Of a stretch of 64,000 nucleotides of DNA, positions 24,259 through 41,226 are shown in pieces. The position numbers and the translations under genes were made by a program. Numbering within the stretch: position 1 is the stretch's first letter; each line of letters opens with the position of its first letter. The notes under the pieces are model-generated. The model did not search any database. It was not told the DNA's origin and was given only the letters and a program-made list of their open reading frames with translations. This stretch comes from Deltaproteobacteria bacterium (GTDB lineage Bacteria > Desulfobacterota > Desulfobulbia > Desulfobulbales > Desulfurivibrionaceae): assembly GCA_021802645.1 (NCBI GenBank), contig JAJZRO010000006.1:1-64000 (forward strand), in the 5' to 3' direction.

Positions 24259-26874
24259 ATGGCGATTGTCGATGCCCTGAAAGATCTTTTCCCCGGCGGT
24301 TGGCCTTGGCAGCGTGGAGCGCCCAAGTACTGCCGCCCCATCCCCCTCATCTTTTCCCGGTTTCGCGAGGTGCTCAAGGCGAATAACCGCGCCCTGGAAC
24401 TGATCGCCGACATGGGCGAGAAGCTGAGCGGTGATTACCTCTTCGACCAGCGCTACGTGCACACCACGGTGGAAGAGCTGATCCAGGCCATGCATGAGGC
24501 GGTTGCCGCCCTCAACAATCTGACCGAAGACCGCTGGACCGCTCTGGTCGAGATTCTGGCCGAGCTTGAGGCCCGGGTCCGGACCATCGTTACCGGCCGT
24601 GATGACCGGGAAGGGCCGGCCTTGCTCTGGCTGACGGATATCCAATCGCACCACTGGCCGCTGGTTGGCGGCAAGGCGGCGCACATCTCGGAGTTGTGCC
24701 AGAGTCCGCAGACCCAGGTGCCGGAAGGGTTTGTCATCACCACCCGTTCGTTCCACGACCTGCTCGATGCCAACGGGCTGCGGGAGGATTTTGCCCGCTT
24801 CGAGCAACTCATGGCCGACGGGCAGGTCGATGAGGAGCCCCTGGAGGCCTTGCGGGCCGCGCTGGAACAGAAGGTGCAACAGGCTCAACCGCCACCCGAT
24901 CTGATCGCGGCCCTGACCGCGATGGTGGAGCGTCTGCAGGAGGCGGTTGGCGCCGGGGCAGCCCCTCTTTTCCTCGCCGTCCGCAGCAGCGCCCAAGAAG
25001 AGGACATGGATTTTTCCTTTGCCGGTCAGTTCCGTTCGGTGTTGCAGGTGCCGGCGCAACCGGCGGCGATTTTCCAGGCGTACCTGCAGGTGGTGGCGAG
25101 CCTCTTCGGGGCCAAGGCGGTGCGCTACCGGCGGCAGGTCTTTCCCGAAGGGGGGCCCTTATCCATTGCCGCCTGTTGCCAGCGCATGATCAGCGCCAAG
25201 GCCAGCGGCATCATTTACACCGAGGATCCGATGACGCCCGGTTCGCGGGACATGCTGGTGGTCGGCGCCTTCGGCCAAGGCCAGGCCGTGGTGGAGGGGC
25301 AGTTGCCCACCGATTTTTTCCGCCTTGCCAAGGGGGAGCCGCCGCAGCTTCTTGACGCCACCATCGCCCGCAAGGAGGAGGCCCTGATGGGCGTGGCCGA
25401 CGCTGACGGCGGGCTTGCCACCGTCAAGGTGACGGCGGCGCAGGCCCAGGAGCCCTGTCTGGCCGAGGCCAAGTTGCTGGAACTGGCCGGGATCGCCAGC
25501 CGTCTGGAGACCTTGTTCAAGCGGCCCCAGGATATCGAGTGGACGGTGGATACGGCCGATACCCTCTATATCCTCCAGGCCCGGCCGTTGTTGTTGCGCG
25601 AAGCAGGGCAGGAGCGCAAGCCGCTGTCGGAAAAACTCGCCGACTATCCGCTGATCGCCACCGCCCAGGGCCGCGTCGCCCAGCAGGGCATCGGGGCCGG
25701 GCCGGTCTGTCTGGTGGAGACCCTGGCCGACCTCAAAACCTTCCCCGAGGGGGCGGTGCTGGTGAGCCATCGGGATTCCTCCCAGTTTGTCCAGGTGATG
25801 CAGCGGGCCGCGGCCATCGTCACCGAGGTGGGTACGCCGGTAAGCCACATGGCCACTCTCTGCCGGGAGTTCCGGGTGCCGTGTCTGGTGGGGGTGCCGG
25901 AGATCTTCGGCAAGGTCATCGCCGGGGAGGAGATCACCGTCGACGCCGATGATCGCCGGATTTACCGCGGCCGGGTGGTGGAACTCCTCACCTACCAGGC
26001 GGCCACGGCCATGAACGTGCAGATGGCCCCGGAGTTTCGGGTGTTGCGCCGCATCCTCCGCACGGTCTCCCGCCTGCATCTCGTGGACCCCCTCATGCAG
26101 GATTTTCGGCCGGAGGGCTGCAAGACCTTCCACGACATGCTGCGGTTCATCCATGAGACCGCGGTGCTCACCCTGGTGGATATCGGCCGGGACGAGGAGT
26201 GCGTCAGCGGCGGCAAGGTGGCCCGTCACCTGGATCTGCCCATTCCGGCCGGCATCCTGGTCATCGATATCGGCGGCGGCCTGGCGCCGGATGCCCCGGC
26301 CGACCACGTTCCCTACAGTGCCGTCCGTTCCTTGCCGTTTCGCGCCATTCTGCAGGGCATGCTTTTTCCCGAGGTCTGGCATCGGGCCGCCATGCCGGTG
26401 AGTTTCCGGGACATGATGCACAGCATGCTGACTGCCCCCCAGGATGCCCTTTCCGGTCAGTATACCGGCCATAATATTGCCATCATCAGCGATACCTATG
26501 TTAATCTTTGCTTCCGTTTCGGGTATCATTTCAACATCATCGACGCCTTCTGCCACGAGGTGGAGCGCGACAACCATATCTACTTCCGCTTTTTGGGCGG
26601 CGCCACCGACATCGCCAAGCGGTCGCGGCGGGCCACGCTCATCGCCACGATTCTGGAGGCCTTTGATTTCAGCGTGCGCACCCGGGGGGACTTGGTCATC
26701 GCCCGCACCAGCAACCTGGTGCAGAGCGAGATGGAGCGCAGCCTCGATATTTTGGGCCGGTTGGTCGGCTTTACGCGGCAGCTCGATGTGCAGATGACCG
26801 ACGAGGCGGCAGTGGAGCGGTACGCCGAGGCGTTTCTCATGGGAGATTACGGCATCGTCGCCCGCGAAGGATGA
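24259..26874 (+). CDS. Dikinase-like protein A (PEP/pyruvate-binding ATP-grasp + phospho-His domain + unknown C-terminal domain)
   Basis: An 871-residue protein. Residues 15-110 are a helical N-terminal region (NNRALELIADMGEKL). Residues 130-450 match the PEP synthase/PPDK ATP-binding domain: VGGKAAHISEL, VPEGFVIT, AVRSSAQEED, SFAGQFRSVL, ASGIIYTEDP, DIEW and LQARP. Residues 470-560 are the swivelling phospho-histidine domain with the candidate catalytic His530 in TPVSHMATLCREF. The last 290 residues are not the PEP-binding barrel: they carry CKTFHDMLRFIHE, VIDIGGGL, FRFGYHFNIIDA and NHIYFRFLGG, shared by the three paralogues below. It may therefore move phosphate from ATP to His and on to an unknown acceptor. 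First gene of the ten-gene cluster. Confidence 0.85.
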   Translation: MAIVDALKDLFPGGWPWQRGAPKYCRPIPLIFSRFREVLKANNRALELIADMGEKLSGDYLFDQRYVHTTVEELIQAMHEAVAALNNLTEDRWTALVEILAELEARVRTIVTGRDDREGPALLWLTDIQSHHWPLVGGKAAHISELCQSPQTQVPEGFVITTRSFHDLLDANGLREDFARFEQLMADGQVDEEPLEALRAALEQKVQQAQPPPDLIAALTAMVERLQEAVGAGAAPLFLAVRSSAQEEDMDFSFAGQFRSVLQVPAQPAAIFQAYLQVVASLFGAKAVRYRRQVFPEGGPLSIAACCQRMISAKASGIIYTEDPMTPGSRDMLVVGAFGQGQAVVEGQLPTDFFRLAKGEPPQLLDATIARKEEALMGVADADGGLATVKVTAAQAQEPCLAEAKLLELAGIASRLETLFKRPQDIEWTVDTADTLYILQARPLLLREAGQERKPLSEKLADYPLIATAQGRVAQQGIGAGPVCLVETLADLKTFPEGAVLVSHRDSSQFVQVMQRAAAIVTEVGTPVSHMATLCREFRVPCLVGVPEIFGKVIAGEEITVDADDRRIYRGRVVELLTYQAATAMNVQMAPEFRVLRRILRTVSRLHLVDPLMQDFRPEGCKTFHDMLRFIHETAVLTLVDIGRDEECVSGGKVARHLDLPIPAGILVIDIGGGLAPDAPADHVPYSAVRSLPFRAILQGMLFPEVWHRAAMPVSFRDMMHSMLTAPQDALSGQYTGHNIAIISDTYVNLCFRFGYHFNIIDAFCHEVERDNHIYFRFLGGATDIAKRSRRATLIATILEAFDFSVRTRGDLVIARTSNLVQSEMERSLDILGRLVGFTRQLDVQMTDEAAVERYAEAFLMGDYGIVAREG

Positions 26875-27010
26875 TGCTCTTGCAAAAAACCCTGAAGGCT
26901 GGCGGGCGGGAACGAGGAAGCGACAAGGTACATAACGCGGACCATCTGCGGCGCGGCTTTTTGCGAGGCCGACAAGGGGAGCGGGCGTGGGCAAGTGAGG
27001 AGGAGAGTGC

Positions 27011-27397
27011 ATGAGCGACAAGGTAAAACGGCTGCTGGTGATCGATGATGAGCCGATTGTGGGAAAAAGGCTCCAGCAGGTGTTCAGCAAGATCGGTTTC
27101 GAGGTCGAGACCTATACCGAGCCGGTGGCGGCGATGGCCGCCATGGCGGCCCACCCCTTCGATATCGTGGTGACCGATCTCAAGATGGAGGGCATGGATG
27201 GCCTGGAGGTGCTCCGGCAGGCCAAGGCGATGAACCCGGCCGCGCGGGTGATCATCATCACCGGCTATGCCTCGCCGGATACCGCCGAGCTGGCGCAACA
27301 GCAGGGGGTGTTCGCATTCCTGGCCAAGCCCTTCCGGCTGGATGAGCTGAAACAGGTGATTTTTCGGGCTCTGGAAGAGTTGGAGGCAGGCCAATGA
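27011..27397 (+). CDS. Single-domain response regulator (receiver only) 1
   Basis: A 128-residue CheY-like receiver. The acidic pair is in VIDDEP, the phospho-acceptor Asp is in VVTDLKM, and the conserved Thr and Lys lie in ITGYAS and LAKPF. There is no output domain, so it must act by protein-protein contact, for example on a histidine kinase or on the neighbouring dikinase proteins. It lies 136 bp after dikinase A and 16 bp before histidine kinase 1. The ATG follows GAGGAGAG. The similar receiver at 38251 sits in the mirror position beside dikinase D. Confidence 0.93.
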   Translation: MSDKVKRLLVIDDEPIVGKRLQQVFSKIGFEVETYTEPVAAMAAMAAHPFDIVVTDLKMEGMDGLEVLRQAKAMNPAARVIIITGYASPDTAELAQQQGVFAFLAKPFRLDELKQVIFRALEELEAGQ

Positions 27398-27413
27398 GCA
27401 GGAGAGGCGCCTG

Positions 27414-28925
27414 ATGCGCAGCGATCTCTTTGTCGCGCCCGTTCCGGAAGCGCCCCAGGAAAGCGGTCAGCCGCCCGAGGACTCCGCCCCCGGCTGTCCG
27501 TGTCTTGCCATGCTCCCCCGCTCCATTCGCGGCCGGCTGATCTTCTCCTTTGTGGTGGTGGCGGTGCTCGGCATCGTGGCCGTCGCCACCTCCCTCTATG
27601 CGATATGGCGGATCGAGGACAAGGTGCGGGTCATCGAATCCTTCTATGAACTCAACCAGAATGTCCTGGAGGTGCGGCGTTACGAGAAGAACTATCTTCT
27701 CTACAACAATACCAAGGATCTGATGAGCGCCCTTGACTACCTCGACCAGGTGCGGGCCACCATTATGCTCGTCAAGAAGGCCTTGCCGCAGGACGAGGCG
27801 GAACTGCAGGTTTTTTACAGCGAGGAACTGGTCCGCTACGAGAACATCTCCCGGCAGCTCCTGGCCGCGCCCTCGGCGGAGCGCCAGAAGAAGATGCTGG
27901 AGAGCCTCCTGCGCCGCCACGGCCAGGAGATCATCAAGCGCGTTTTCGACATGGACACCCGGGCCCGGCTGCGGGTGGAGCGGGAGGTGGCCAATTACAA
28001 GAAAACCGGGGTTCTCATCCTCGGGCTGGCGATCCTGCTGGGCGGGGTGTTGATTTTTTATCTGATCCGCTGGATCACCCGGCCGCTCGGCGCCATCCGT
28101 GAGGCCTCCGCCCAGATCATGCAGGGCAAGCTGAGCTCCATTCCGGTCAACGAGGATATCGTCTGTTCGGTGGAGGGGCTGGAGCTGGTCAATTCCCTGA
28201 ATCTGATGCTGAAGGCGCTTCACGTCAAGCAGGGGCAGCTGGTGCAGTCGGAAAAGCTGGCCGCCATCGGCAAGGTGACCGCCGGCATCGCCCACGAGAT
28301 CAACAATCCGCTCAACAACATCTCGCTCACCGCCGAGGTGCTGCTGGAGGATCTGCCCAATCTCGACTGTCACGAACGGCTCGACATGGTCCGCGACATC
28401 CTCACCCAGTCGGACCGGGCCCGCAACGTGGTGCATCACCTGCTGGAGTTTTCGCGGACCCGCAAGGCGGAAGGGGTGCAACCGCTGGACCTGGGCAAGT
28501 TGATGGCCGACTCCATCGTCTTGGTCAAGAACCAATTCCGCTTGGGCGGCATTACCTACCAGTACGACCAGCCGACGCAACCGGCCATGGTGCTGGGCAA
28601 CGCGAACCAGCTCCAGCAGGTGCTGGTCAACATCATCCTCAATGCCGTCCAGGCCATGCAGCCCGGCGGGCATCTGGGGCTGGCGGTGGAGGGGCGGGAG
28701 AAAGAGGTGGTGGCCACCATCAGCGATACCGGCGCCGGGATTCCCGCCCAGCTGCTGCCCCACATCTTCGATCCCTTTTTCACCACCAAGAACGAAGGCA
28801 CGGGGTTGGGGCTGTCGCTCAGCTATTCCATTATCAAGGATCACCAGGGCGACATCGAGGTGGAGAGCCAGGAAGGCCGGGGCACCACCTTCCGCATCCG
28901 GTTGCCGCAAGCATCGTCCCGGTGA
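27414..28925 (+). CDS. Membrane sensor histidine kinase 1
   Basis: A 503-residue kinase. Two transmembrane helices (about 42-62 and 200-222) flank an extracytoplasmic helical domain with EVRRYEKNYLLY; then comes HAMP, the HisKA domain with the phospho-acceptor His in AGIAHEINNPLNNI, and the ATPase domain with N box (NIILNAVQAM), G1 (DTGAGIP) and G2 (GTGLGLSLS). A 35-residue Pro-rich tail precedes the first helix; an internal Met (in CLAMLPRS) is an alternative start. It lies 16 bp after receiver 1 and 6 bp before dikinase B, so it is probably co-translated with both. The ligand is unknown. Confidence 0.94.
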   Translation: MRSDLFVAPVPEAPQESGQPPEDSAPGCPCLAMLPRSIRGRLIFSFVVVAVLGIVAVATSLYAIWRIEDKVRVIESFYELNQNVLEVRRYEKNYLLYNNTKDLMSALDYLDQVRATIMLVKKALPQDEAELQVFYSEELVRYENISRQLLAAPSAERQKKMLESLLRRHGQEIIKRVFDMDTRARLRVEREVANYKKTGVLILGLAILLGGVLIFYLIRWITRPLGAIREASAQIMQGKLSSIPVNEDIVCSVEGLELVNSLNLMLKALHVKQGQLVQSEKLAAIGKVTAGIAHEINNPLNNISLTAEVLLEDLPNLDCHERLDMVRDILTQSDRARNVVHHLLEFSRTRKAEGVQPLDLGKLMADSIVLVKNQFRLGGITYQYDQPTQPAMVLGNANQLQQVLVNIILNAVQAMQPGGHLGLAVEGREKEVVATISDTGAGIPAQLLPHIFDPFFTTKNEGTGLGLSLSYSIIKDHQGDIEVESQEGRGTTFRIRLPQASSR

Positions 28926-28931
28926 CCGCCG

Positions 28932-31475
28932 ATGCCCCTGCCTCCGCTGCCAGACCCCCCCGGCAAGGCCGCCGCTTTTGCCGCCCCCTTCCAGCACTTT
29001 CGCCGGATTCTCGCCTTGAACAATGCGGTGCTCGAAAAGATCGGCCGCATGGAAAGCGCCCTGGCCGGTGAGTACGTCTTCGACCGCAAGTTCCTGGGCG
29101 AGATCGTCGGCGAAACCGGAGAACTGGTGCGGGAGGTGGTCTATTGCCTGAACCGCCTCACCAACGATGGCCATCTGGCGCTCTACGACGCCTATGGCGA
29201 GATCGGCGACAAGCTGGCGGCGCTGGCCAGCGGCGCGGCCGGTCCCTTTGATCGCAGCCTGCTTCTGCCCTACGACCTGCTCAACAGCGACTTCGAGGAG
29301 TTGGTGGGCGCCAAGAACGCTACCCTCTGCGAGATTCGCAACCGTTTGCAACTGCCGGCGCCGGATGGCTTTGCCATCACGGTGGCGGCCTATCGGCAGT
29401 TCATGGCGGAAAACGAGCTCTATAGCCGGATCGATGCCATTGCCGCTGCCAGCGGCTCGGCGGCCGAGCGCGCCGCCGAGATCAGCGCCCTGCTGGCCAG
29501 CGCCGTATTGCCGCGAGCCCTGGTGGCAGCGGTGACGGAAGCGCTTGCCCAACTGCGGAGCCGCAGCGAGGCTGGCCTCACCCTGGCGGTCCGCAGCAGC
29601 GGAATCGGCGAGGATGGCGAATCCCGCAGTTTTGCCGGCCAGTTCCGCTCGCTGCTCGCGGTGCCGTCGAAGCCGGAGGCGGTGCTGATGGCCTATCGGC
29701 AGGTGGTGGCCTCGCGTTTTTCGGTGGCGGCCTTGGAGTATCTGGGCCCCGCGGCGGACAGCCGGGCCATTCCCATGGCGGTGGCGGTGCAGCCCATGGT
29801 CGGTGGTCATGCCGCCGGGGTGACCTACAGCCGCAACCCGGTGGACCCGGAGCGCCCGGAGTTGGTGATTACCGCGGTGCGCGGCGCCGGCCGGGATCTG
29901 GTGGCCGGCCGCAAATCCGCCGACCATTTTACCGTGAGCCGCACTTGGCCGTTTGCGCTGCTGGCAAGTGAGCTGGTGGCGGAGGCTGCCGAGGCGGACG
30001 ATCCCCTGGCCTGGCTGCCCAACGGCCTGCGGCGCGGCTCTGCCACCCTGACCCCGGAGGTGCTCGCCCGGCTCGCCGCCCAGGCGGTGCTGCTGGAGAA
30101 GGCCTTTGGCGAACCGCAGGATATCGAGTGGGCAGTGGCGGGGGAGGCGGAACCGATCATCCTGCAGAGTCGCCCCTTTGCCCTGCCGGCCAAGCCGCCC
30201 CCGCCGCCCGCCGCCATTGCGGCCGAACTCGCGGCTGCCCAGCCGTTGATGGCGGGCAAGGGGCAGGTCGCCCAGCTGGGGATCGCCGCCGGCCGGGTGG
30301 TACTGGTGGACCAGGCCACGGTGGCCGAGGAATTCCCGGTGGGGGCCATCGCGGTGGCCCGTTTCCCCAGCCCACAGCTGAGCCCCATCGTCTGGCGGGC
30401 CGCGGCCATCATCACCGATATCGGCGGCCCCACCGGCCATCTTGCCACCATTGCCCGCGAGTACCGCACTCCTGCCCTGTTCGGCACCGGCGAGGCAACC
30501 CGCCGGTTGGCCGCCGGCGAGGAGGTGACCGTCGACGTCGAAAACAAGATGGTCTACCGCGGCGTGATCGAAGGGCTGGTGCGCCTGCAGGCGGCGGAAA
30601 AGGATGCCTATCGCGCCTCCCCCGAATTGCGGACCTTGCGGCGCATGCTGCGTTGGGTGGCGCCGATCACCCTCACCGATCCCACCGCCCCGGAATTCCG
30701 GGCGGAAAACTGCCGCACCTTCCACGACATTCTGCGCTTCTGCCATGAAAAGGCAGTGGACGCCCTGATCCATCTCCATGCCGGCCCGATCGGCAGCGAA
30801 CGCGAAGGGGGCAGCCGCCTGGTGCGGTTGCCGGTGCCGCTCAAGCTCGGGGTGCTCGATCTGGGTTCGGGCGTAGCGCCGGGGGCGCCGCCGGCGGGCG
30901 AACTCGACTGGACCAAGCTGGCCAGCCGGCCGCTGTTGGCGATCCTCACCGGCTTTCTGCGTGGGGTGGAGAGCGATCAAGGGCCGGCTGCCCTCGACTT
31001 CCGCGATCTGCTGACCACCATCAGCCGGCCGCTATCGCTCTTGACCAACTGGCCCGCCTATGCCGGCAACAACCTGGCGATCATCGCCGAGGATTACTGC
31101 AACCTGTCGCTGCGTCTCGGCTACCACTTCAATGTGGTGGACGCCTATCTGTCGGCGGAGCCGGATAACAACTACATCTACTTCCGCTTTGTCGGCGGCA
31201 TGGCCGAGCAGCAGAAACGCGAACGGCGGGCGCGGTTGATCGGCGCCATCCTGGCCGGCCTCTATTTCAAGGTGGAACGCCATGGCGATCTGGTGGTGGC
31301 CAAGGCCAGGAATCTCGATCCGGGGCAGATGGAGCGGGTGCTGATCCGGCTAGGCGAGTTGATCAGCTTTACCCGCCAGCTCGATGTGCGGATGCGGGAC
31401 GAGGAGGCCATCGACCAGTTTTTTGCGCGCTTTCTGGCGGCGGTCAAGGACGAACAGGCCGGCGGCAACGGGTGA
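28932..31475 (+). CDS. Dikinase-like protein B
   Basis: An 847-residue paralogue of protein A. The N-terminal helical region is more divergent (NNAVLEKIGRMESAL). The ATP-grasp block has LAVRSSGIGED, SFAGQFRSLL, QDIEWAV and LQSRP. His503 in GPTGHLATIAREY is the probable phospho-acceptor. The C-terminal domain keeps CRTFHDILRFCHEKAV, GVLDLGSG, LSLRLGYHFNVVDA and NYIYFRFVGG. The PEP barrel is absent, as in A. It begins 6 bp after histidine kinase 1 and its TGA overlaps the ATG of dikinase C, so B and C are translationally coupled and may form a hetero-oligomer. Confidence 0.84.
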   Translation: MPLPPLPDPPGKAAAFAAPFQHFRRILALNNAVLEKIGRMESALAGEYVFDRKFLGEIVGETGELVREVVYCLNRLTNDGHLALYDAYGEIGDKLAALASGAAGPFDRSLLLPYDLLNSDFEELVGAKNATLCEIRNRLQLPAPDGFAITVAAYRQFMAENELYSRIDAIAAASGSAAERAAEISALLASAVLPRALVAAVTEALAQLRSRSEAGLTLAVRSSGIGEDGESRSFAGQFRSLLAVPSKPEAVLMAYRQVVASRFSVAALEYLGPAADSRAIPMAVAVQPMVGGHAAGVTYSRNPVDPERPELVITAVRGAGRDLVAGRKSADHFTVSRTWPFALLASELVAEAAEADDPLAWLPNGLRRGSATLTPEVLARLAAQAVLLEKAFGEPQDIEWAVAGEAEPIILQSRPFALPAKPPPPPAAIAAELAAAQPLMAGKGQVAQLGIAAGRVVLVDQATVAEEFPVGAIAVARFPSPQLSPIVWRAAAIITDIGGPTGHLATIAREYRTPALFGTGEATRRLAAGEEVTVDVENKMVYRGVIEGLVRLQAAEKDAYRASPELRTLRRMLRWVAPITLTDPTAPEFRAENCRTFHDILRFCHEKAVDALIHLHAGPIGSEREGGSRLVRLPVPLKLGVLDLGSGVAPGAPPAGELDWTKLASRPLLAILTGFLRGVESDQGPAALDFRDLLTTISRPLSLLTNWPAYAGNNLAIIAEDYCNLSLRLGYHFNVVDAYLSAEPDNNYIYFRFVGGMAEQQKRERRARLIGAILAGLYFKVERHGDLVVAKARNLDPGQMERVLIRLGELISFTRQLDVRMRDEEAIDQFFARFLAAVKDEQAGGNG

Positions 31476-34075
31476 TGCCAGTGCTGCGGATGCTGCGACA
31501 ACAGTGGACGAAGTGGCAGGAGGCGCGGCGGCAGCGCCAGCTCGCCGCCGATCAGCGTCTCAAGGCGCGCTATCACGTCTTTCGTTCCCTGCTGGCCTGC
31601 AACAACCGGGCAGTGGACGCCCTGACCGACATCGCCATTCTGCTGCGGCTGCAAGGGGAAACCGCCACCCTGACCCGCCTGGTGGGCAGCCTGATCGGCG
31701 AAACGGCCGAGATGGTGGAGCGTCTGGAGCAGCTGACCACCGGCTATCGGGCGTTGCGGGGCGTCCAGCAGGGTCTGGCCCGGCGGGTTGCCGCCAAGCT
31801 CAAGGAGTTGGCGCCGGTGACGCAGCCGCCACTCTGCCTGCCGCTCACCGGGGAACTGCGCCACCAGCCGTTGCTGATCGGCAACAAGGCGGCCGCCCTG
31901 GCCGGATTGCAGGGGGTCGACGGGGTGTCGGTGCCGGCCGGTTTCGTGATCAGCGTGGCCGGTGGTCGCCTGTTTTTGGAGCATCAGGGGTTGTCGCTGG
32001 AACTGGTGCACCGGTTGGCGGCCCTGGGCGCCGAGGCCCAGGATATTCCCCCGGCCGCGGCCGAGACCATGCAGCAGCTTATCCGCCAGGCCCAACTGCC
32101 GCCGGAGCTGGCGGTAGCCATGGCCACCGCGGCCCGTCCTTTCTTCGCCGCCGGCCTAGCTTTGGCGGTGCGCAGCAGCAGCATCAGCGAAGACGGCCGC
32201 CACCATTCCTTTGCCGGCCAGTTCAGTTCGGTGCTCAACGTGCGCACCGAGGCCCAGTTGCACGAGGCCTTCAAGGAGGTAGTGGCCAGCAATTTCAATG
32301 CCCGCAGCCTTGCCTATCGCCGTCATGCCGGCCTCGATCCCCTCACCTTCGATATGGCAGTGCTGTGCCTGGAAATGATCGAACCCCGGGCGGCCGGCGT
32401 CCTGCTGACCAGGTTGCCCCAGGCGCCGGAGGGGGAGGCCATGCTGATCAGCGCGGTGCCCGGCCTGGGCGAGGCTGCGGTCGCCGGCAGCGCCGCGGCG
32501 GATCTCTATGTGGTGGCGCGGGATGGCACCGTGGACTGGCCGCGCTCCACCGTCGCCGACAAGGAGAAATATCTGGCCAGCGAGGCGGCAGGCGGCGTCG
32601 GCTGGCGGGCGGTACCGGTGGCCGAGCGCCAGCGCGCCCTTCTCGCTGACCAGGAACTGGCGGCCTTGGCGAGCGTGGGCCGGCTGGTGGAGGCGCGGGA
32701 AGGGGTAGCCCAGGATATCGAATGGGCTTTAGATCGTCAAGGGCAGCCGGTCATTCTGCAGGCCCGGCCGTTGATCAGCCAAGGCCGCCAGGCCAGCGCC
32801 GAGTGGCAGCCCCACTCTCCCCCGCTGGCCCAGGGGCTCGTTGCCGCGGGCGGCCGCGCCACTGGCCGGGTGCGGCTGGTGCAGGGGCGCAGCGACTTCA
32901 GCCAGGTGCCGCAGGAACCGCTGGTGCTGGTGATGCCGCAGAGCTTTGTCGATGCCGCCAACCTCCTCGGGCTGGTGAGCGCGGTCGTGGTTGAGTTGGG
33001 CAGTCCGGCCGACCACCTGGCCTGTGTTGCACGGGAACACGGCACTCCGCTGGTCTGCGGCGTGAAGGGGGCCGGCCGGCGTCTGGCCGCAGGCGAGTGG
33101 GTCACGGTGGACGGCGATCACGGGCTGATCTATGCCGCGAGTGGCGAGGAGGTTGCCGCCGCGCAACGACTCTGGCAGCAGGCAGGCGGTCTTGCCCGAC
33201 CGGCCCCGCCGCCGTTACCGCCGCTCTCCCATGCATTGCAGGAGTTGGTGACCACCCTCCACCTCACCGATGCCTACGGCCCCACTTTCTCCATCGTGGA
33301 GTGCCGTTCGCTGCACGATATCGTCCGCTTTGCCCATGAAAAGGCGGTACTGGCCATGTTCGAGGCCGGCGACGAATTGCTGGAGGCGAATCTGCAGGCG
33401 GTGTACGTGCTGGAGGTGCCGGTGCCCTTTTTTGTCAGCGTCATCGACCTGGGCGGCGGGTTGACCTTGACCGAGGGCCGCCAACGCCGCATTGCGCCAG
33501 ACCAGGTGGTTTCCTTGCCTTTCCAGGCGCTGTGGCGGGGGATCGTCACCCCTGGCCTGCGGTGGGGGCCGCCGCCGGGCGGCGCGCCCATGGGCGCGGT
33601 GATGTCTTCCTGGCTCACCGACCAGAAGTCGGAACGGCCCATCGGCATGCCCAACTACGCCTTGGTCAGCCGCGACTACTGCAACCTGAACGCCCGCATG
33701 GACTTTCATTTCATCATGGTCGATGCGGTCTGCGGTCTGGACCCGCGCAGCAACCATATCCGCTTTCGTTTCAAGGGCGGAGGAACTAATTTGCCGCGAC
33801 GACGACGTCGGGCCTTGTGTATTGCAGAAATTTTTGTACATTACGGCTTTTTAGTCGACGTGCGGGAAGATTTGGTCAACGCGACGCTCCAGGGGGCCCC
33901 GCACGAGGTGGTGGAAGAAAAACTGGAGGTGGTCGGCCGGGTTCTCGGGTTCACACGCCTGCTGGACGCGGTAATGCGGGACGAGGCCACCGTGCATGCG
34001 GTGGCGCAGGCGTTTATCGAAGGCGACTTCGGGCTCCGCCGGCTGGAAGCGACAGGGAACAAGGGGACCGTGTAA
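31475..34075 (+). CDS. Dikinase-like protein C
   Basis: I place the start at ATG 31475, which overlaps the TGA of B (TGATG); an in-frame GTG at 31472 is possible. The 866-residue protein shares the layout: N-terminal helices (YHVFRSLLACNNRAVD), ATP-grasp with LAVRSSSISED, SFAGQFSSVL, QDIEW and LQARP, and His514 in SPADHLACVAREH. In the C-terminal domain, CRSLHDIVRFAHEKAV, VIDLGGGL and CNLNARMDFHFIMVDA match the other copies but the NHIRFRFKGGG element is slightly changed. It is the most divergent copy, so its partner or substrate may differ. Confidence 0.84.
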   Translation: MPVLRMLRQQWTKWQEARRQRQLAADQRLKARYHVFRSLLACNNRAVDALTDIAILLRLQGETATLTRLVGSLIGETAEMVERLEQLTTGYRALRGVQQGLARRVAAKLKELAPVTQPPLCLPLTGELRHQPLLIGNKAAALAGLQGVDGVSVPAGFVISVAGGRLFLEHQGLSLELVHRLAALGAEAQDIPPAAAETMQQLIRQAQLPPELAVAMATAARPFFAAGLALAVRSSSISEDGRHHSFAGQFSSVLNVRTEAQLHEAFKEVVASNFNARSLAYRRHAGLDPLTFDMAVLCLEMIEPRAAGVLLTRLPQAPEGEAMLISAVPGLGEAAVAGSAAADLYVVARDGTVDWPRSTVADKEKYLASEAAGGVGWRAVPVAERQRALLADQELAALASVGRLVEAREGVAQDIEWALDRQGQPVILQARPLISQGRQASAEWQPHSPPLAQGLVAAGGRATGRVRLVQGRSDFSQVPQEPLVLVMPQSFVDAANLLGLVSAVVVELGSPADHLACVAREHGTPLVCGVKGAGRRLAAGEWVTVDGDHGLIYAASGEEVAAAQRLWQQAGGLARPAPPPLPPLSHALQELVTTLHLTDAYGPTFSIVECRSLHDIVRFAHEKAVLAMFEAGDELLEANLQAVYVLEVPVPFFVSVIDLGGGLTLTEGRQRRIAPDQVVSLPFQALWRGIVTPGLRWGPPPGGAPMGAVMSSWLTDQKSERPIGMPNYALVSRDYCNLNARMDFHFIMVDAVCGLDPRSNHIRFRFKGGGTNLPRRRRRALCIAEIFVHYGFLVDVREDLVNATLQGAPHEVVEEKLEVVGRVLGFTRLLDAVMRDEATVHAVAQAFIEGDFGLRRLEATGNKGTV

Positions 34076-34105
34076 CGGCCCGGGACAATAAAGAAGTTGG
34101 ATATC

Positions 34106-35635
34106 ATGTTGGCAGGTCCTGAAAAATATGCCGCGCTGGTGGCGTTGAGTGAGCAGTATGGTTGCCCGTGGGTGGAATATCATGAGTCGGTGACCGGCCC
34201 CCAGTTCCTGCTGTGGACCTTGGACATGGCCAAGCTCCTGGCCGAAGGCTGGTTCCCGCGGGTGGTGGCCGACGGGCGGGCGGTGGTGATCGCCACTGCC
34301 CCCGGTCCGGCCGTGGCCGCCAAGGTGCGCGAGACCATCGGCGTAAAGGAGGTTGACTTCCAGGTCACGCTGCCGGAGGACCTTGCCCGGATCTTCGACC
34401 ACAACCAGGATCTCAACCCGGGCTTTCCGCCCACTGGCGGCCGTACTCCGCTGGCCAAGGTGCGGACCTACCTGGCCGGCCGGCGTTCGCTCCTCGCCCA
34501 TTACCGCACCCTGCTGGCCAAGAGTCGCACCGGCCTCGCCTTCATCCGCACCGGGCTCTCCTTCACCACCATCGCCCTGCTTTTTCTCCGCCTGCTGGGG
34601 GCCAAGTATTATCTGCTCCTGGAAGTGCCGCTGTTGGTCAGCGGGATTATCATGGCCTATGATGGCCTCAAGTGGTATCTGCCGGCCCGGCAGCTGTATG
34701 GCGGTCTGCCGTCTTGTATCGATACCGGGGCCACCGGCGGCACCACCGTGCTGGAGGCCTATAATGCCGAGAAAAATCCGGAATTCCGGCGCAGCGCGGT
34801 GATCCCCGGGGCTGCGGCGTTGCGCGTCGGCTGGACCAGCCTGTCGCCGGTGATGCGGCGTCGTTATCTGGCCAGTGATCGCACCGATCTCGCCGAGGAG
34901 CGGACGGTGCTTGCCTGCTTCCGCACCAAAATGGCCAAGGTCCGTACCGGTTTGGCCTTCACCCGCACCGGCTTTGCCTTTATCAGCCTGGGACTGGGCC
35001 TGCTGCGCCAGTTTCATGCCAGTCGCTGGCTGCCCTTCGACATTGGCCTCATTGCCATCGGCATGCTGATGGCAATGGAGGGCCTGTTCTGGTATCTGCG
35101 CGGCCGCAAGGCGGGCGTGGAAGGTCATGCCTCGGTGCAGGAGAAGGGCGGGCGCTCCACCGTCTGGGATTATTTCTTCCCGCATCGTCATTTCCCGCCG
35201 GGGCCGGCGAGCAACCCCATGACCCTGCCGGTCAAGAGTTCGCATGTGCCGGGTATCTGGGCCACGACTGGGGTTGCCTTGGAGCGCACCGTCCTGGCGG
35301 AACGCCGCAACGTGATGGCGCGGTTGCGCACGGTCATGGCCCGTGCGCGGACCGGATTCGCCTTTATCCGCACGGGACTCAGCGTGTTTTTGATCGGCGT
35401 TGCCTTTTTGCTTGCCTTTACCGATAAAGGCGGGCCCGGCTGGGCGGCATTCAGCTATTCCATGATGGTGGCCGGCCTTCTTTTGGTGACCGATGGTTTT
35501 CTCTGGAGCCTGCCGGCCGAACGGACCCGGCGGCAGTTCCCCTATTGCTACGGCTACATGGAGATCACCATCCCGGATTACGGCACCCCGGCCCGTTTCT
35601 GGAAAAAAGTGGTATTCAGCAATGGCGAAAGTTGA
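34106..35635 (+). CDS. Membrane protein with T2SS-E_N-like N terminus and three DUF202-like repeats
   Basis: With ATG 34106 (an upstream TTG 34097 is possible) the protein has 509 residues. The first 105 residues resemble the N-terminal domain found ahead of GspE/PilB ATPases (LLAEGWFPRVVADGRAVVIAT, then VTLPEDLARIF), but there is no ATPase domain. Three DUF202-type segments follow, near residues 120-195, 255-335 and 393-470. Each begins with an Arg-rich run such as ARTGFAFIRTGLS and contains two transmembrane helices. It lies between dikinase C and a similar protein, and overlaps the latter by 14 bp. It probably anchors or couples the cluster to the membrane; function unknown. Confidence 0.8.
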   Translation: MLAGPEKYAALVALSEQYGCPWVEYHESVTGPQFLLWTLDMAKLLAEGWFPRVVADGRAVVIATAPGPAVAAKVRETIGVKEVDFQVTLPEDLARIFDHNQDLNPGFPPTGGRTPLAKVRTYLAGRRSLLAHYRTLLAKSRTGLAFIRTGLSFTTIALLFLRLLGAKYYLLLEVPLLVSGIIMAYDGLKWYLPARQLYGGLPSCIDTGATGGTTVLEAYNAEKNPEFRRSAVIPGAAALRVGWTSLSPVMRRRYLASDRTDLAEERTVLACFRTKMAKVRTGLAFTRTGFAFISLGLGLLRQFHASRWLPFDIGLIAIGMLMAMEGLFWYLRGRKAGVEGHASVQEKGGRSTVWDYFFPHRHFPPGPASNPMTLPVKSSHVPGIWATTGVALERTVLAERRNVMARLRTVMARARTGFAFIRTGLSVFLIGVAFLLAFTDKGGPGWAAFSYSMMVAGLLLVTDGFLWSLPAERTRRQFPYCYGYMEITIPDYGTPARFWKKVVFSNGES

Positions 35636-36836
35636 GAGTGAGATGCTGGCACAGCCCTTTGCCGGGGCCGGTTTGCTGCCGGCGGAACAGCTGGTAGCGG
35701 CCGGCGAGGCCGCCGTCCTGCGCGGCGTTCCCTTGGCCCGCATCCTCCATGAGGAATACGGCGTGCCGCGCGAGAAGTTGCTGGCTGCGTTGTGCGCCTA
35801 TTATCGGTGCGCCGCCATCGAATACGACGAGCGGCTGCCCATCCCGCCCGAACTGCTGCGCGGCGAGCTGGGCAAGCAGATGGGGCAACGCGGCTGGTTC
35901 CCGGTGATCAAGGATATCGACGGCACCATTGTTGTCGCGGCCAGCGTCCCCACCGACCCGGTCATGCGCGCGGAGGTTGCAGCGGCCTTTGGCCCCGGTC
36001 CCTATGAGTTCCGGGTGGCCTTGCCCGACGACATCGCCTGGTTCATCCAGGACTTCCTGCATGCCCCCCCTGGTCAGCTCATCGGCACTGAACGGACCGG
36101 CCTGGCCTTCTGGCGCAATATCATGGCCCACTGGCGCACCAGGATGGCCTGCTACCGCACCGATCTCGCCAAGGCCCGCACCGCGCTGGCCTTTGTCCGG
36201 ATGGGGCTTGCCTTTGCCACCCTGTCCCGCACGCTTTTGAGCAGCAAGAGCTTCAGCATTGCGCCGGCCGTGGCCTACGGCGTGCTGGCGGTGGGGCTGC
36301 TGCTGCTTTTCGGCGCGCTGCCCACCTACCTCAAGGTCCGCCGGTCACGGATGACCCCACCACGGCACCAGACGCTGGTCGAGGTGAGCGCCGCCACCTT
36401 GAGTTTCCTGGAGAACTACCACAACCTGGAATGTGCGCCAAAACCAGCGCAGATCAAGGAAACCATGCTGGCGCGCCTCGGCGACCTGCTGGCCGATTAC
36501 AGCACCATCATCTATCCGGCCCCGGCCAGCCGCGAACGCACCCACCTGGCGCGGGAACGCAACGTGCTGGCCGGCCAGCGGACCGTGGCCGGCTGCTACC
36601 GCACCATTTATGCGCGGGCCCGCACCGGCTTGGCCTTTATCCGCACCGGCGTCTCCTTCGTCAGTATCGGCATCGGTCTCATCGGTTACTTCGGCTTGGG
36701 TGGGCAGACCCTTTTTGATATGATGTTGATTATCATCGGCCTGCTGATGATCGTCGATGGCGCATTCTGGTACCTGCCGGTGCGCAAGGAGCAGGCCGAG
36801 CTGCCCAGGACACGGAGCGCCGTTTTGGCGGGGTGA
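35622..36836 (+). CDS. Membrane protein with T2SS-E_N-like N terminus and two DUF202-like repeats
   Basis: The ATG at 35622 (14 bp inside the previous gene) gives 404 residues; ATG 35643 is an alternative. The N-terminal 150 residues have the GspE/PilB N-terminal pattern (LLPAEQLVAAGEAAVLRG, LARILHEEYGVPREKLLAAL, then VALPDDIAWFIQDF). Two DUF202-like repeats occupy about 155-245 and 300-390, each with an Arg-rich run (KARTALAFVRMGLA; ARARTGLAFIRTGVS) and paired helices. It is a shorter relative of the preceding protein. It ends 6 bp before histidine kinase 2. No enzymatic motif is visible. Confidence 0.8.
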   Translation: MAKVESEMLAQPFAGAGLLPAEQLVAAGEAAVLRGVPLARILHEEYGVPREKLLAALCAYYRCAAIEYDERLPIPPELLRGELGKQMGQRGWFPVIKDIDGTIVVAASVPTDPVMRAEVAAAFGPGPYEFRVALPDDIAWFIQDFLHAPPGQLIGTERTGLAFWRNIMAHWRTRMACYRTDLAKARTALAFVRMGLAFATLSRTLLSSKSFSIAPAVAYGVLAVGLLLLFGALPTYLKVRRSRMTPPRHQTLVEVSAATLSFLENYHNLECAPKPAQIKETMLARLGDLLADYSTIIYPAPASRERTHLARERNVLAGQRTVAGCYRTIYARARTGLAFIRTGVSFVSIGIGLIGYFGLGGQTLFDMMLIIIGLLMIVDGAFWYLPVRKEQAELPRTRSAVLAG

Positions 36837-36842
36837 GCCGGC

Positions 36843-38264
36843 ATGAAGATCGAATACAAGATCTATCTCTCCAACGCGATCCATATCCTGTTGCTCGTCT
36901 TGATCGGCATCTTTGCCCTGCAGAACCTCAATCAGATTCTGACCAAGTTCCGTTTCACCGTCATTGCCGAAGGGCTGAACGCCACCTTCCTCGAGATGCG
37001 GCTGGCGGAAAAGAACTATTTCCTCTATGGCGACGCCGAGGCGCTGGCCAACATCAAAGGCAAGATCGACCAGACCAGCGAGACGCTCCAGCAGGTGCGG
37101 CAGGATATCACCCGGGCGGTGGGGGCCGAGAAATACAACCGGCTGCAAGGGTATCTCAAGGGATATGGCCAACTCATCGCTTCACTCGACAAAAGCAGGC
37201 TTCGGGACCCGGTTGCCCAGCAGAAACTCCGGGAGGCGGGCCAGAACCTCAAGACCTTTTCCGAAAACATCACGGCCCTTGAAAGCGACAGCATCGGGGC
37301 GATCATCGTCCACTCCAAAAATATCTTGCTCTATTCCTTCTGGGCTGTGGTACTGTTCGCCTTTCTGTTCAGCTACCTCATCGTGCACAATATCGGCTTT
37401 TCGCTGCGCAAGATCGTGGAGCTGACCCGTTCGATCTCCAAAGGCAACTATGAGAAGATCGCGGAGAAACCGTCGAATGACGAGATGGGGGCGGTGATCA
37501 GCGCCATCAATGCCATGGCGGAGGAGTTGCAGAAACGGGAAAAGGAGATCGTGCAATCGAAACGGCTCGCCTCCATCGGCGTGCTGGTGGCCGGCGTGGC
37601 CCACGATCTCAACAATCCGCTCAACAATATCTCCATGATCGCCCAGACCTATGCCGAGGTGTACGACAGCCTCAGCCGGGAGGAGCGCATCGGCTTCATG
37701 GAGCGGGTCGATGAAGAAACGGAACGGCTACGGGTGATCATCCGCAACCTGCTGGATTACGCCAAGCCGAAGGAGCAGCATCTGGCCAGGGCGGTTACCA
37801 ACATGGTGATCCAGAAGATCCTGGCCCTGGTGCAGAACATGCTCGATATCTCCAACATCCAGACCCGGCTGGCCTTGGCCGACAACCTGCCGGATATCTA
37901 TATCGACGAGCATCAGATCCAGCAGGTGCTGGTCAATATCGTCACCAATGCCATCCAGGCCATGGACAAAGGCGGCGAGCTGCGGATCGTTTCGCGGTAT
38001 CTGCCGGCCCAGGACGACATCGAAATCGAGATCGGCGACAACGGCAAAGGCATTGCCCCCGAGTTTCTCGATCACATCTTCGACCCGTTTTTCACCACCA
38101 AGGAGGAGTCCGGCACCGGACTTGGTCTGTGGGTCAGCTACGGCATTATCAAGAACCATCAGGGGAACATCCGAGTGGCCAGCGAGGTCGGCGTCGGCAC
38201 GACGTTTACCATAACCCTACCCAGTTGCAAAAAGTTAAAGAGGTGCTGTGATGGCGAAGCATAA
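36843..38264 (+). CDS. Membrane sensor histidine kinase 2
   Basis: A 473-residue kinase similar to kinase 1. The N-terminal helix (about 7-29) is followed by a helical sensor region with RLAEKNYFLYG, a second helix near 160-180, HAMP, and the HisKA motif AGVAHDLNNPLNNI. The ATPase domain has NIVTNAIQAM, DNGKGIA and GTGLGLWVS. The shared EKNY(L/F)LY stretch in both kinase sensors suggests they detect related signals. Its last 14 bp overlap the start of receiver 2, which supports kinase-receiver pairing. Spacing of 6 bp to the preceding DUF202 gene suggests one operon. Confidence 0.94.
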   Translation: MKIEYKIYLSNAIHILLLVLIGIFALQNLNQILTKFRFTVIAEGLNATFLEMRLAEKNYFLYGDAEALANIKGKIDQTSETLQQVRQDITRAVGAEKYNRLQGYLKGYGQLIASLDKSRLRDPVAQQKLREAGQNLKTFSENITALESDSIGAIIVHSKNILLYSFWAVVLFAFLFSYLIVHNIGFSLRKIVELTRSISKGNYEKIAEKPSNDEMGAVISAINAMAEELQKREKEIVQSKRLASIGVLVAGVAHDLNNPLNNISMIAQTYAEVYDSLSREERIGFMERVDEETERLRVIIRNLLDYAKPKEQHLARAVTNMVIQKILALVQNMLDISNIQTRLALADNLPDIYIDEHQIQQVLVNIVTNAIQAMDKGGELRIVSRYLPAQDDIEIEIGDNGKGIAPEFLDHIFDPFFTTKEESGTGLGLWVSYGIIKNHQGNIRVASEVGVGTTFTITLPSCKKLKRCCDGEA

Positions 38265-38619
38265 CATTATGGTCATTGATGACGAGAAGATCGTGGGCGA
38301 CATGGCGAAACTCTCGTTCGAGCAGGACGGGTACGAGGTAGAGACCTTCCTGAACGGCGAGTCGGCTCTGGAGCGCCTCAAGGAGAAGCGCTTCGACGTC
38401 GTGGTCACCGATCTCAAGATGAAGGGGGTGGACGGCCTCGAGGTGCTGCGCACCGTGAAGAAGCTCCATCCCGGCACGGTGGTGATCATGATTACCGCCT
38501 TTGCCAACCTGGACGTGGCCATCGAGGCGTTGCGGGACGATGTGCACGACTTCTTCCCCAAGCCGGTCAAGATCAAGGAGTTGAAGACCTCGATCAAGAA
38601 GGCCCTGGGCGATCTGTGA
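38251..38619 (+). CDS. Single-domain response regulator (receiver only) 2
   Basis: A 122-residue receiver from ATG 38251, preceded by AAAGAGG; the in-frame GTG just before it is less likely. The acidic pair is VIDDEK, the acceptor Asp is in VVTDLKM, the Thr in ITAFA and the Lys in FPKPVK. No output domain. It is close to receiver 1 in sequence (shared VVTDLKM and DGLEVLR). It overlaps kinase 2 by 14 bp and precedes dikinase D by 36 bp, so the same kinase-receiver-dikinase trio occurs at both ends of the cluster. Confidence 0.93.
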   Translation: MAKHNIMVIDDEKIVGDMAKLSFEQDGYEVETFLNGESALERLKEKRFDVVVTDLKMKGVDGLEVLRTVKKLHPGTVVIMITAFANLDVAIEALRDDVHDFFPKPVKIKELKTSIKKALGDL

Positions 38620-38655
38620 GAGCGCCCAGGCGGCGCGAACCCACGGGCGCGTGAC

Positions 38656-41226
38656 ATGACACCGGCTTGGTGGGATAAACTGACGGGGCTGTCGGGGCGG
38701 CGGCAAGGCACGTCGGCCGATCTGGCCGCGCGCTTTCATTTTTTCCAGGCGGTGCTCGACGGCAACAACCGCACCCTGGAACTCATGACCGAGATGGGAG
38801 AAAAGCTCGGCGGCGACTATCTCTTTGACGTCAACTACACCAGGAGCGCCTATGCCGCGTTGTTTGCGGCCATCTCCGATTCCCTGCGCAATTTCAATCA
38901 GCTTACCGATGACCGCTATCCCGAGCTTGCCAAGACCTTAAACCGCATCGACGGCCTGGTCCAGCGGATGCTCACCAACACCGAACCGGCCTCCGGCCGG
39001 TTGGTCCTCTTCTACCCCGAGATCACCTGGGACCTGGCCGATGAGGTGGGCGGCAAGAATTATCATCTGGCCGAGCTGGCCAATGCCCTGCACCTGCCGG
39101 TACCCGAGTCCTTTGCCATCACCACCACCGCCTTTACTCTCTTTTTCCGGCACAATGGGCTGGAGGAGCGGCTGGCCGAGCTGCCCAGGGCGGATGAAGG
39201 CGCGCTCGCCGGTTTGCGGGGTGCGATCCTGGCCGGCGAGTTCCCGGAGGAGTTCACTGCCGCGCTCGCGGCTGCGGTGGCCACCTTGCGAAGCCGGCTC
39301 GGCAGCACCGCCACCCTGGCGGTGCGCAGCAGCGCCGAGGAGGAGGATGGCGACTTCTCCTTTGCCGGCCAGTTCGAAACGGTGCTCAACATCCCCTGCA
39401 CGGTCGCGGCGGTGCAGGCCGCCTACAAGGAGGTGGTGGCCAGCCTCTTTCAGACGAACGCCATCAGCTACCAGCGCCAGTTGGGCTATGATCTCGGCCG
39501 GCTTAAGATGGCGGTGGGCTGCGTGGCCATGGTCGCGGCGCAGGCGAGCGGCGTCATCTTCACGGCCGCCGGCGGCAGGGACCGGAGCCGGCTGGCGATC
39601 AGCGCCGCTTGGGGGCTCGGCAAGGCGGTGGTGGATGGCCTGACCGACGCCGACCTGTACACGGTGGCCAAGGGCGACGAGTTGCGGCTGGTGGCGCGCC
39701 GCATCGGCGCCAAGGCTCAGATGGTGGTGAACACCGGCGCCAGCGGCATCGAGACCAAAGAGACGCCGCCGGCCCAGCAACAGGTGGCGTGCCTGAGCGA
39801 GAAGGAGGTGCTCGCCTTGGCCCAGCAGGCCACGGCCATCGAGGAACACTTCAAGTGCCCGCAGGATATCGAATGGGCCAAGGATGCGGCCGGCCGCCTC
39901 TTTTTCCTCCAGACCCGGCCGCTGCGCATGGAGGAACCGGAGGAGGCGACTGCCTCAGCGCTGCCGCCGGAGACGCCGACCGGTCATGCGGTGTTGCTGC
40001 GCGGCCAGGGAGTGGTGGTCCAGCGCGGGATTGCCGCGGGCTCGGTTTTTCTCCTGCGCCACCTCGACGAACTGGAGCGGATCCCCAAGGGCAGCATCCT
40101 GGTAGCGGGCCACGACTCCCCCCTTTTCGTCCAGGCGATCCCTTTTCTCCACGCCATCATTACCGACGTCGGCGTGCCCACCAGCCACATGGCCTCCATC
40201 TGCCGGGAGTTCAACCTCCCCACCGTGGTCAATGCCGGGTCCGCCACCGCGACCTTGCGCCATGGCCAGGAGGTCACCCTGCACGCCAACGAGGGCAGCG
40301 ATTGGGTGCTCTACGAGGGTATCGTCCATGGCCTGCTGCGGCAGGAGAAGCAGACCGCGGCCAAGATGCGGGCGCTCTACGAGTTTCGGCGCCAGAAATA
40401 CATCATGCGCCACATCGCGCCGCTCCATCTGATCAACCCCCTCGACCAGGAATTTACCCCGGAGAAGTGCCAGACGATCCATGACCTGATTCGCTTCATG
40501 CACGAGAAGGCGGTGCAGGCGCTGGTCGCCAGCGCCGAACGCCAGGGACGGGGCCGTTTGTTCGGCGGGCAGACAGGGCCGCGGAAGCTGGCGTTGCCGA
40601 TTCCGGTCGAACTCCTGGTGATCGACCTTGGCGACGGCCTGCGCAAGGCGGCGGGCAAAAAGGAGGTGGAACCGGCCCAGGTGGAATCGGTGCCCCTGGC
40701 GGCGGTGCTGGCCGGCATGTTGACCCCCGGCGTCTGGCAGCAGGAGGCGATGGCCCTGCGTGGGGCGGACCTCTTTTCCGGCATGATGCGGGCGGCCGAC
40801 CTCACCGCCGGCAATGAGGCGACGCTGGCCCACAACGTGGCCCTGGTCAGCCGGGATTATCTGAACATGGGGCTGCGTTTCGGCTACCACTTCAACATGC
40901 TGGACTGCTACTGCAGCGAGACGCCGCGCAACAACCACATCTATTTCCGTTTTGTCGGCGGCGCCGCCGCCATCACCAACCGTTCCCGCCGGATCGCCCT
41001 CATGGCCATGGTGCTGGCGGAATACGGCTTTGCCCTCAAGGCCAAGGGCGATCTCCTGGTCGGCCGGATTTCCGGCCTGAGCCGCCCGGAGATCGAACGG
41101 ATTCTCACCCAGATCGGGCGGCTGATCGGCTTTACCCGGCAGCTCGACGCCCGGTTGGAGGCCGACGAGACGGTGCGGCTCCTGGCCCGCCGTTTCCTGG
41201 CCGGCGACTATCGCGTGGCGCTCTGA
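38656..41226 (+). CDS. Dikinase-like protein D
   Basis: An 856-residue paralogue, closest to A: both have NNR(A/T)LEL(I/M)(A/T)(D/E)MGEKL(S/G)GDYLFD in the N-terminal helices. The ATP-grasp domain has AVRSSAEEED, SFAGQFETVL, QDIEW and LQTRP; His511 in VPTSHMASICREF is the probable phospho-acceptor. The C-terminal domain keeps CQTIHDLIRFMHEKAV, VIDLGDGL, LNMGLRFGYHFNMLDC and NHIYFRFVGG. The PEP barrel is absent. It closes the cluster; its stop lies in a 7-bp inverted repeat shared with the stop of the convergent phosphatase gene. Confidence 0.85.
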   Translation: MTPAWWDKLTGLSGRRQGTSADLAARFHFFQAVLDGNNRTLELMTEMGEKLGGDYLFDVNYTRSAYAALFAAISDSLRNFNQLTDDRYPELAKTLNRIDGLVQRMLTNTEPASGRLVLFYPEITWDLADEVGGKNYHLAELANALHLPVPESFAITTTAFTLFFRHNGLEERLAELPRADEGALAGLRGAILAGEFPEEFTAALAAAVATLRSRLGSTATLAVRSSAEEEDGDFSFAGQFETVLNIPCTVAAVQAAYKEVVASLFQTNAISYQRQLGYDLGRLKMAVGCVAMVAAQASGVIFTAAGGRDRSRLAISAAWGLGKAVVDGLTDADLYTVAKGDELRLVARRIGAKAQMVVNTGASGIETKETPPAQQQVACLSEKEVLALAQQATAIEEHFKCPQDIEWAKDAAGRLFFLQTRPLRMEEPEEATASALPPETPTGHAVLLRGQGVVVQRGIAAGSVFLLRHLDELERIPKGSILVAGHDSPLFVQAIPFLHAIITDVGVPTSHMASICREFNLPTVVNAGSATATLRHGQEVTLHANEGSDWVLYEGIVHGLLRQEKQTAAKMRALYEFRRQKYIMRHIAPLHLINPLDQEFTPEKCQTIHDLIRFMHEKAVQALVASAERQGRGRLFGGQTGPRKLALPIPVELLVIDLGDGLRKAAGKKEVEPAQVESVPLAAVLAGMLTPGVWQQEAMALRGADLFSGMMRAADLTAGNEATLAHNVALVSRDYLNMGLRFGYHFNMLDCYCSETPRNNHIYFRFVGGAAAITNRSRRIALMAMVLAEYGFALKAKGDLLVGRISGLSRPEIERILTQIGRLIGFTRQLDARLEADETVRLLARRFLAGDYRVAL

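Follow-up and report, generated by a model that had tools for sequence, protein, structure and literature searches.

Conserved clusters of dikinase-like and two-component genes suggest an undescribed phosphate-transfer signaling system tied to sulfur metabolism

What are four relatives of phosphoenolpyruvate (PEP) synthase doing side by side with the parts of two-component signal transduction? The question is raised by ten genes at positions 24259-41226 of a 64,000-nt stretch of DNA from a deltaproteobacterium (contig JAJZRO010000006.1 of assembly GCA_021802645.1, positions 1-64,000, forward strand), which we call the window. A first-pass annotation had described the ten as same-strand genes for four dikinase-like proteins that keep the ATP-grasp and swivel domains, two sensor histidine kinases, two receivers without output domains, and two DUF202 proteins, and had proposed that they form a membrane-linked phosphotransfer system. 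All ten are open reading frames on the plus strand at the coordinates given there, and Pfam agrees with the domain content assigned to each protein. We refer to the dikinase-like proteins as DIK A to DIK D and to their C-terminal domain as the CTD.

The cluster opens with DIK A (24259-26874), which belongs to clade A of the family and consists of an N-terminal helical domain, an ATP-grasp domain, a phosphohistidine swivel domain, and the CTD. It is followed by a single-domain receiver (27011-27397; Response_reg, E = 7e-26) from the receiver clade that follows clade A dikinases, which marks it as the putative dedicated partner of DIK A. Next come a sensor histidine kinase with two hydrophobic segments, a weak HAMP match, HisKA, and HATPase (27414-28925), then DIK B (28932-31475; clade B) and DIK C (31472-34075; clade C), the latter starting with GTG and overlapping DIK B by 4 bp. 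The first DUF202-repeat membrane protein (34097-35635) has three DUF202 stretches and a weakly MshEN-like N terminus (0.007), and the second (35622-36836) has an N-terminal MshEN domain (E = 1.6e-8) and DUF202 (E = 5e-10). The second sensor kinase (36843-38264) again combines two hydrophobic segments with HAMP, HisKA, and HATPase, along with a weak match to the HBM sensor domain. The last two genes encode a receiver (38251-38619; Response_reg, E = 1e-28), the probable partner of DIK D given that receivers preceding clade D dikinases group together, and DIK D itself (38656-41226). HisKA and HATPase_c were found by Pfam in both kinases and DUF202 in both membrane proteins, and Response_reg is the only significant domain in either receiver. 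The spacings, in gene order, are 136, 16, 6, -4, 21, about -14, 6, about -14, and 36 bp, so that the gaps are indeed mostly below 40 bp, with the one after DIK A as the exception.

The ten genes are only part of the unit, whose start the first-pass annotation had placed too far downstream. The unit begins at a gene for a universal-stress-like (USP) protein of 198 aa (21675-22271, plus strand; Pfam Usp, E = 0.0025, below cut-off), the real start of which may lie about 45 bp downstream. USP homologues occur three genes before a DIK gene in at least 12 loci. Between the USP gene and DIK A lie genes for a TauE/SafE (TSUP) membrane transporter with eight hydrophobic segments (22310-23236, plus strand; Pfam TauE, E = 2e-49), whose position before DIK A is conserved, and for an Alph_Pro_TM (TIGR02186) membrane protein (23238-24032, plus strand; PF09608, E = 2e-52). 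The order tauE, TIGR02186, DIK, receiver is conserved among related loci. Sulfate reducers have many TSUP proteins of the TauE kind, most of them uncharacterized (PMC5840216), and a search of open-licence papers returned nothing for TIGR02186 or PF09608. In loci with another type of dikinase (L116, L155, L031, and others), the gene between tauE and the dikinase encodes, instead of Alph_Pro_TM, a protein of about 230 aa whose two ends bear apparent membrane segments.

Transcription of the unit would start from a sigma-54 promoter upstream of the USP and TauE genes. The -24/-12-like sequence TGGCACGGATAGTGCT (21645-21660, plus strand), just ahead of the USP gene, has no equal among the sigma-54-like sites in the window and is the sole match there to the consensus with at most one mismatch. 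Weaker matches occur in the window at the number expected by chance, so the argument for this promoter rests on its position and on comparison: in about 14 related operons, a sigma-54-like site with at most two mismatches lies upstream of USP or tauE (shuffle p <= 0.04). The likely transcriptional activator of the unit is an NtrC-type response regulator (20098-21468, plus strand) composed of a receiver (Response_reg), a sigma-54 activator domain (Sigma54_activat, E = 4e-71), and a Fis-type helix-turn-helix (HTH_8); a receiver-domain gene also stands ahead of USP-tauE in several related loci. In Desulfovibrio vulgaris, DVU2957-2967 form an operon annotated as transmembrane transport with a sigma-54 activator gene beside it (PMC4641369), and DVU2958 is a TSUP protein (PMC5840216). 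This operon resembles the DIK unit as a sigma-54 TSUP operon of a sulfate reducer, and kinship between the two is a lead only. An Rfam search of the unit found no RNA elements. Nine of the proteins had no match among the PADLOC models of anti-phage defense, and a defense-system reading was rejected on that basis. Elsewhere in the window are a tRNA gene of which the window edge leaves only the 3' part (1-48, plus strand; Rfam tRNA), a lipid/peptide-like biosynthetic cluster (543-13669) with ketoacyl synthases, an acyltransferase, two B12-binding radical SAM proteins, a SPASM radical SAM protein, a BtrH_N/DUF4872 protein, and an ABC-2 permease, a PIN-PhoH fusion protein (16906-18366, plus strand), and a receiver-PAS-GGDEF protein, a diguanylate cyclase response regulator (57390-59954, plus strand).

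The first half of each DIK protein (847-871 aa) is that of a dikinase. In all four, Pfam detected PPDK_N at E = 1e-58 to 3e-77 and PEP-utilizers at E = 3e-13 to 4e-17. When 198 distinct family members, taken from about 170 genomic stretches, are aligned (DIK D numbering), the ATP-site residues K134, R224, E406, Q419, and R421 are kept in 190-195 members and the swivel histidine, His511, in every one, with the flanking TxxGG motif changed to TxxGxP in most. The full-length AlphaFold2 model of DIK D (pLDDT 87.9) resembles, in its first half, the ATP domain of rifampin phosphotransferase (RPH; TMt 0.88-0.91) and the carrier domain of pyruvate phosphate dikinase (PPDK; TMt 0.67), and structure comparison places Enzyme I of the PTS within the same swivel fold. 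From these conserved residues we infer that the swivel histidine may be autophosphorylated by ATP, and the phosphotransfer part of the earlier proposal would follow from the same ATP-site and phosphohistidine residues.

Are the DIK proteins, then, ordinary PEP synthase paralogues that happen to lie in a region rich in two-component genes? They share with PEP synthase (PpsA) and PPDK the ATP-grasp and swivel domains, the domain order, and the catalytic residues, and sequence kinship extends over the first ~560 residues. The DIK proteins carry an extra N-terminal helical domain of about 110 aa relative to PEP synthase and PPDK. The best scores of the four against curated NCBIfam models are far below the cut-offs (303 bits against 598 for NF005057 and 297 against 740 for TIGR01418), as they are for the rifampin phosphotransferase model NF041857 (at most 214 bits against 999). 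The genome encodes a separate, normal PEP synthase, the gene order described below is conserved across genera and phyla, and the PEP/pyruvate TIM barrel is missing. Ordinary PEP synthases are therefore hardly a credible reading, and we regard it as refuted in the main.

In place of the barrel, all four proteins end in the CTD, a domain of about 290 aa (from about residue 563 in DIK D) that follows the ATP and swivel domains. The barrel domain PEP-utilizers_C (PF02896), which the first-pass annotation had named as the domain to look for, was matched by Pfam in none of the four. A barrel HMM found nothing below E 2 in the dikinase-like family, and an HHalign comparison of the CTD with a profile of 17 true PEP synthase C termini from related genomes gave a probability of 0.1%, so a barrel hidden in the C terminus was rejected. 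The CTD had no match in Pfam, and searching PDB sequences with CTD profiles returned nothing below E 1.3. A structural model of the CTD (pLDDT 87, pTM 0.78) found no PDB structure at E 0.001 by Foldseek, the best being E 0.02 with a query TM of at most 0.22; resemblance of its C-terminal half to the YbjN/type III chaperone fold (4h5b, ExsC) was weak and not significant. Asp610, His616, His745, Phe766, Arg779, and Asp831 are invariant in all 198 members, and D610, H616, H745, R779, and D831 form the pattern that would be expected of an active or binding site. Taken with the conserved ATP and swivel half, the unmatched CTD indicates that a DIK protein begins as a dikinase and ends in something novel. 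Two variants of this architecture were also seen. A dikinase subfamily in Nitrospirota and deltaproteobacterial MAGs has an additional C-terminal domain of about 213 aa with weak Pfam similarity to 3-keto-disaccharide hydrolase/laminin-G domains (L091:6813-7451, L096, L099, L100), and the genome (L157, G000:C4:36001-55000) also encodes a protein of about 1540 aa with ATP-grasp and swivel matches and no CTD, with a histidine kinase and a receiver nearby on the opposite strand.

The module to which these proteins belong is real and widespread. A CTD profile search found the family in 146 of 395 genomes and 83 of 246 genera of Desulfobacterota and in 38 of 148 Nitrospirota genomes. In the Pseudomonadota sample (1/200) and the Bacteroidota sample (1/198) it returned only genomes already known, and the 197 other sampled genomes of the latter phylum lacked the CTD family. 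Other genera share the complete series tauE, Alph_Pro_TM, A, receiver, kinase, B, C, DUF202, DUF202, kinase, receiver, D, as expected of a conserved system, and two smaller modules, tauE-Alph_Pro_TM-A-receiver and DUF202-DUF202-kinase-receiver-D, are more widespread and extend to Nitrospirota. In a quick DIK tree, A, B, and D form clean clades (support 0.92-1.0), the node of C has 30 tips of which 29 are C, and A2, a second tauE-Alph_Pro_TM-DIK-receiver group, was not monophyletic. Each clade keeps its own neighbors, with B nearly always followed by C. Orthologues of DIK D are up to 72-74% identical to it, compared to 31-40% for DIK A, B, and C of the same window; because of this, and because each paralogue sits in its own clade common to other genera, recent tandem duplication was rejected. 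We found no paper describing the gene cluster or its combination of parts among the open-licence papers searched, and as far as these searches show, the module is undescribed.

Two-component genes are frequent companions of the family. A same-strand two-component gene lies within two genes of 149 of the 198 DIK family members, compared to 1 of 17 ordinary PEP synthases from related genomes (Fisher p = 1.5e-8, indicative since the family members are non-independent). The dikinase genes are thus not scattered apart from two-component neighbors, and chance clustering was rejected on the recurrence of the gene order and on this control. About 90 of 100 DIK-adjacent receivers are single-domain; the residues D, D, D, T, and K are kept in nearly all of them, and the phosphoacceptor Asp in 51 of 52 and 47 of 48 (the exceptions being a single gap and a single Asn). 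A tree of 265 receivers sorts the neighbors of A (20 of the tips in a clade of 21), A2, D, and E dikinases according to the clade of the dikinase. This match between receiver and DIK clades is the strongest sign of a partnership, and gene order and phylogeny together show, at the level of sequence, that the DIK protein is accompanied by a dedicated receiver of its own, and often also by a histidine kinase, a TSUP transporter, or DUF202 proteins. Receiver-dikinase fusion was not found: none of the 198 family members has a receiver domain within the DIK open reading frame, and apparently longer frames were rejected as out-of-frame extensions or separate NtrC-type regulators. Roughly one quarter of members lack a two-component gene at that distance, so some subfamilies, among them one with an added ConA-like domain, may work differently.

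In which direction would phosphate or control pass between the two partners? One interpretation is that the swivel phosphohistidine phosphorylates the receiver Asp directly, with the DIK protein replacing or supplementing a histidine kinase. Seventeen DIK-adjacent receivers in near-complete neighborhoods have no histidine kinase within four genes and keep the Asp, the swivel fold is that of Enzyme I of the PTS, and VadK (Rv1127c) of mycobacteria, a regulatory ATP-dependent histidine kinase derived from PPDK (PMC13400623), offers a precedent for ATP and His parts acting in this way. Unlike the DIK proteins, which have a conserved CTD and dedicated receivers as well, VadK has ATP and His domains and nothing more (about 50 kDa). 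A histidine kinase does lie within four genes in 70 of 98 DIK-receiver cases, which would make the DIK protein redundant as a phosphodonor, and the CTD would have to serve as a receiver-docking domain. We consider such direct transfer to the receiver quite improbable.

An alternative is that the DIK protein is a metabolic enzyme, a small-molecule dikinase with the CTD as binding site for a small acceptor such as a sulfonate or another sulfur compound supplied by TauE, and that the two-component parts regulate only expression or transport. RPH, HpeHI, CreHI, and phenylphosphate synthase share the ATP and swivel machinery with the DIK proteins, and in known non-PEP dikinases of this kind the acceptor domain is the sole part exchanged (PMC4844700, PMC12167813). 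In the CTD, the invariant His, Arg, and Asp residues would suit catalysis, and TauE is nearby, as is a DASS transporter in one locus type. RPH is built in another order, with the RIF-binding domain between the ATP and His domains and the swivel domain last. Fold comparison did not link the CTD to the RIF domain, and two-component partners have not been described for any of the four enzymes. The adjacent receivers, being mostly single-domain, have no DNA-binding output and so cannot act on transcription directly, and they co-diversify with the DIK proteins even in loci that lack a nearby kinase gene. The unit sets four divergent paralogues next to one another and holds no other metabolic enzyme. 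On this evidence a purely metabolic role seems unlikely, if a serious contender.

The membrane link that had been proposed for the cluster is supported by the TauE, Alph_Pro_TM, and DUF202 genes and by a DUF202-receiver fusion encoded directly upstream of a DIK gene at one locus. Two unrelated phosphatases also recur as neighbors. A calcineurin-like phosphoesterase that resembles protein phosphatases is convergent with DIK D (41238-41939, minus strand; Metallophos, E = 5e-17), and in 16 related loci a homologue directly follows the dikinases, again on the opposite strand. The second type, a dual-specificity protein phosphatase with a Cys-rich C-terminal part, stands beside another dikinase subfamily in about 7-10 loci (L029:7184-8260, L032:11399-12460, and others). 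Directly after the cluster, the window also encodes a 799-aa protein (42071-44470, plus strand) with no NCBIfam, Pfam, or PADLOC match and with homologues in three fetched stretches only.

The family co-occurs strongly with dsrA, a gene of dissimilatory sulfite reductase. In raw counts that ignore kinship, dsrA is present in 139 of 146 CTD-positive Desulfobacterota genomes compared to 51 of 249 CTD-negative ones, and in 32 of 38 compared to 29 of 110 in Nitrospirota, so that the association agrees in two phyla. Five of the seven CTD-positive Desulfobacterota genomes without dsrA are less than 90% complete. We take the conserved clusters to suggest an undescribed phosphate-transfer signaling system tied to sulfur metabolism. 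Dikinases bring ATP and AMP into equilibrium, and sulfate reducers make AMP and PPi for each sulfate. The level of DIK phosphohistidine could thus report the balance of ATP to AMP and PPi (or Pi), which sulfate activation and APS reduction disturb, and so tune the sulfur-anion transporter. The co-occurrence with dsrA fits an energy-charge sensor of this kind, but 51 Desulfobacterota and 29 Nitrospirota genomes bear dsrA without the DIK family, and we think it very improbable.

The reading that we prefer, at somewhat short of even chances, is a two-component-coupled dikinase signaling module of dissimilatory sulfite/sulfate reducers, in which an ATP-charged phosphohistidine phosphotransferase controlled by a receiver (or feeding it) works at the membrane beside a sulfur-anion transporter. 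ATP would phosphorylate the swivel histidine in an AMP-forming reaction, as in PEP synthase and RPH, and the swivel would then hand its phosphoryl group on to an acceptor bound at the CTD. Gating of this transfer would fall to the receiver, which would bind the DIK protein and, where a histidine kinase is encoded nearby, be charged by it. The output would be at the membrane, on the TauE/Alph_Pro_TM transporter or a DUF202 complex, and the neighboring phosphatase would reverse it. As with autophosphorylation, we infer the CTD acceptor and the direction of control between receiver and DIK protein. By analogy, VadK, RPH and HpeHI, the D. vulgaris sigma-54 TSUP operon, and the REC-PPDK fusion response regulators of Bacteroides and Heimdallarchaeota (PMC5847659) may serve as precedents for each piece of this mechanism; in the fusions, as in DIK loci, a receiver is linked to a PPDK-type protein, but there the two are fused and here they are separate genes. 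A broader formulation, which we offer only tentatively, is a new class of bacterial signaling: an ATP-driven phosphohistidine carrier, derived from dikinases and equipped with a new-fold CTD, that exchanges phosphate or control with dedicated single-domain receivers in a relay beside a sulfur-anion transporter, regulating dissimilatory sulfur respiration in Desulfobacterota and Nitrospirota.

Roughly a third of sampled Desulfobacterota genomes and a quarter of sampled Nitrospirota genomes carry the DIK family, often in several copies, possibly as part of a new signaling pathway. If the proposed reading is true, sulfate reducers use an undescribed phosphotransfer system that joins an ATP-powered phosphohistidine enzyme to sensor kinases and to a sulfur-anion transporter, and the CTD would add a new acceptor domain to the small-molecule and regulatory dikinases exemplified by RPH, HpeHI, and VadK. 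The clusters provide testable partners in genetically tractable sulfate reducers.
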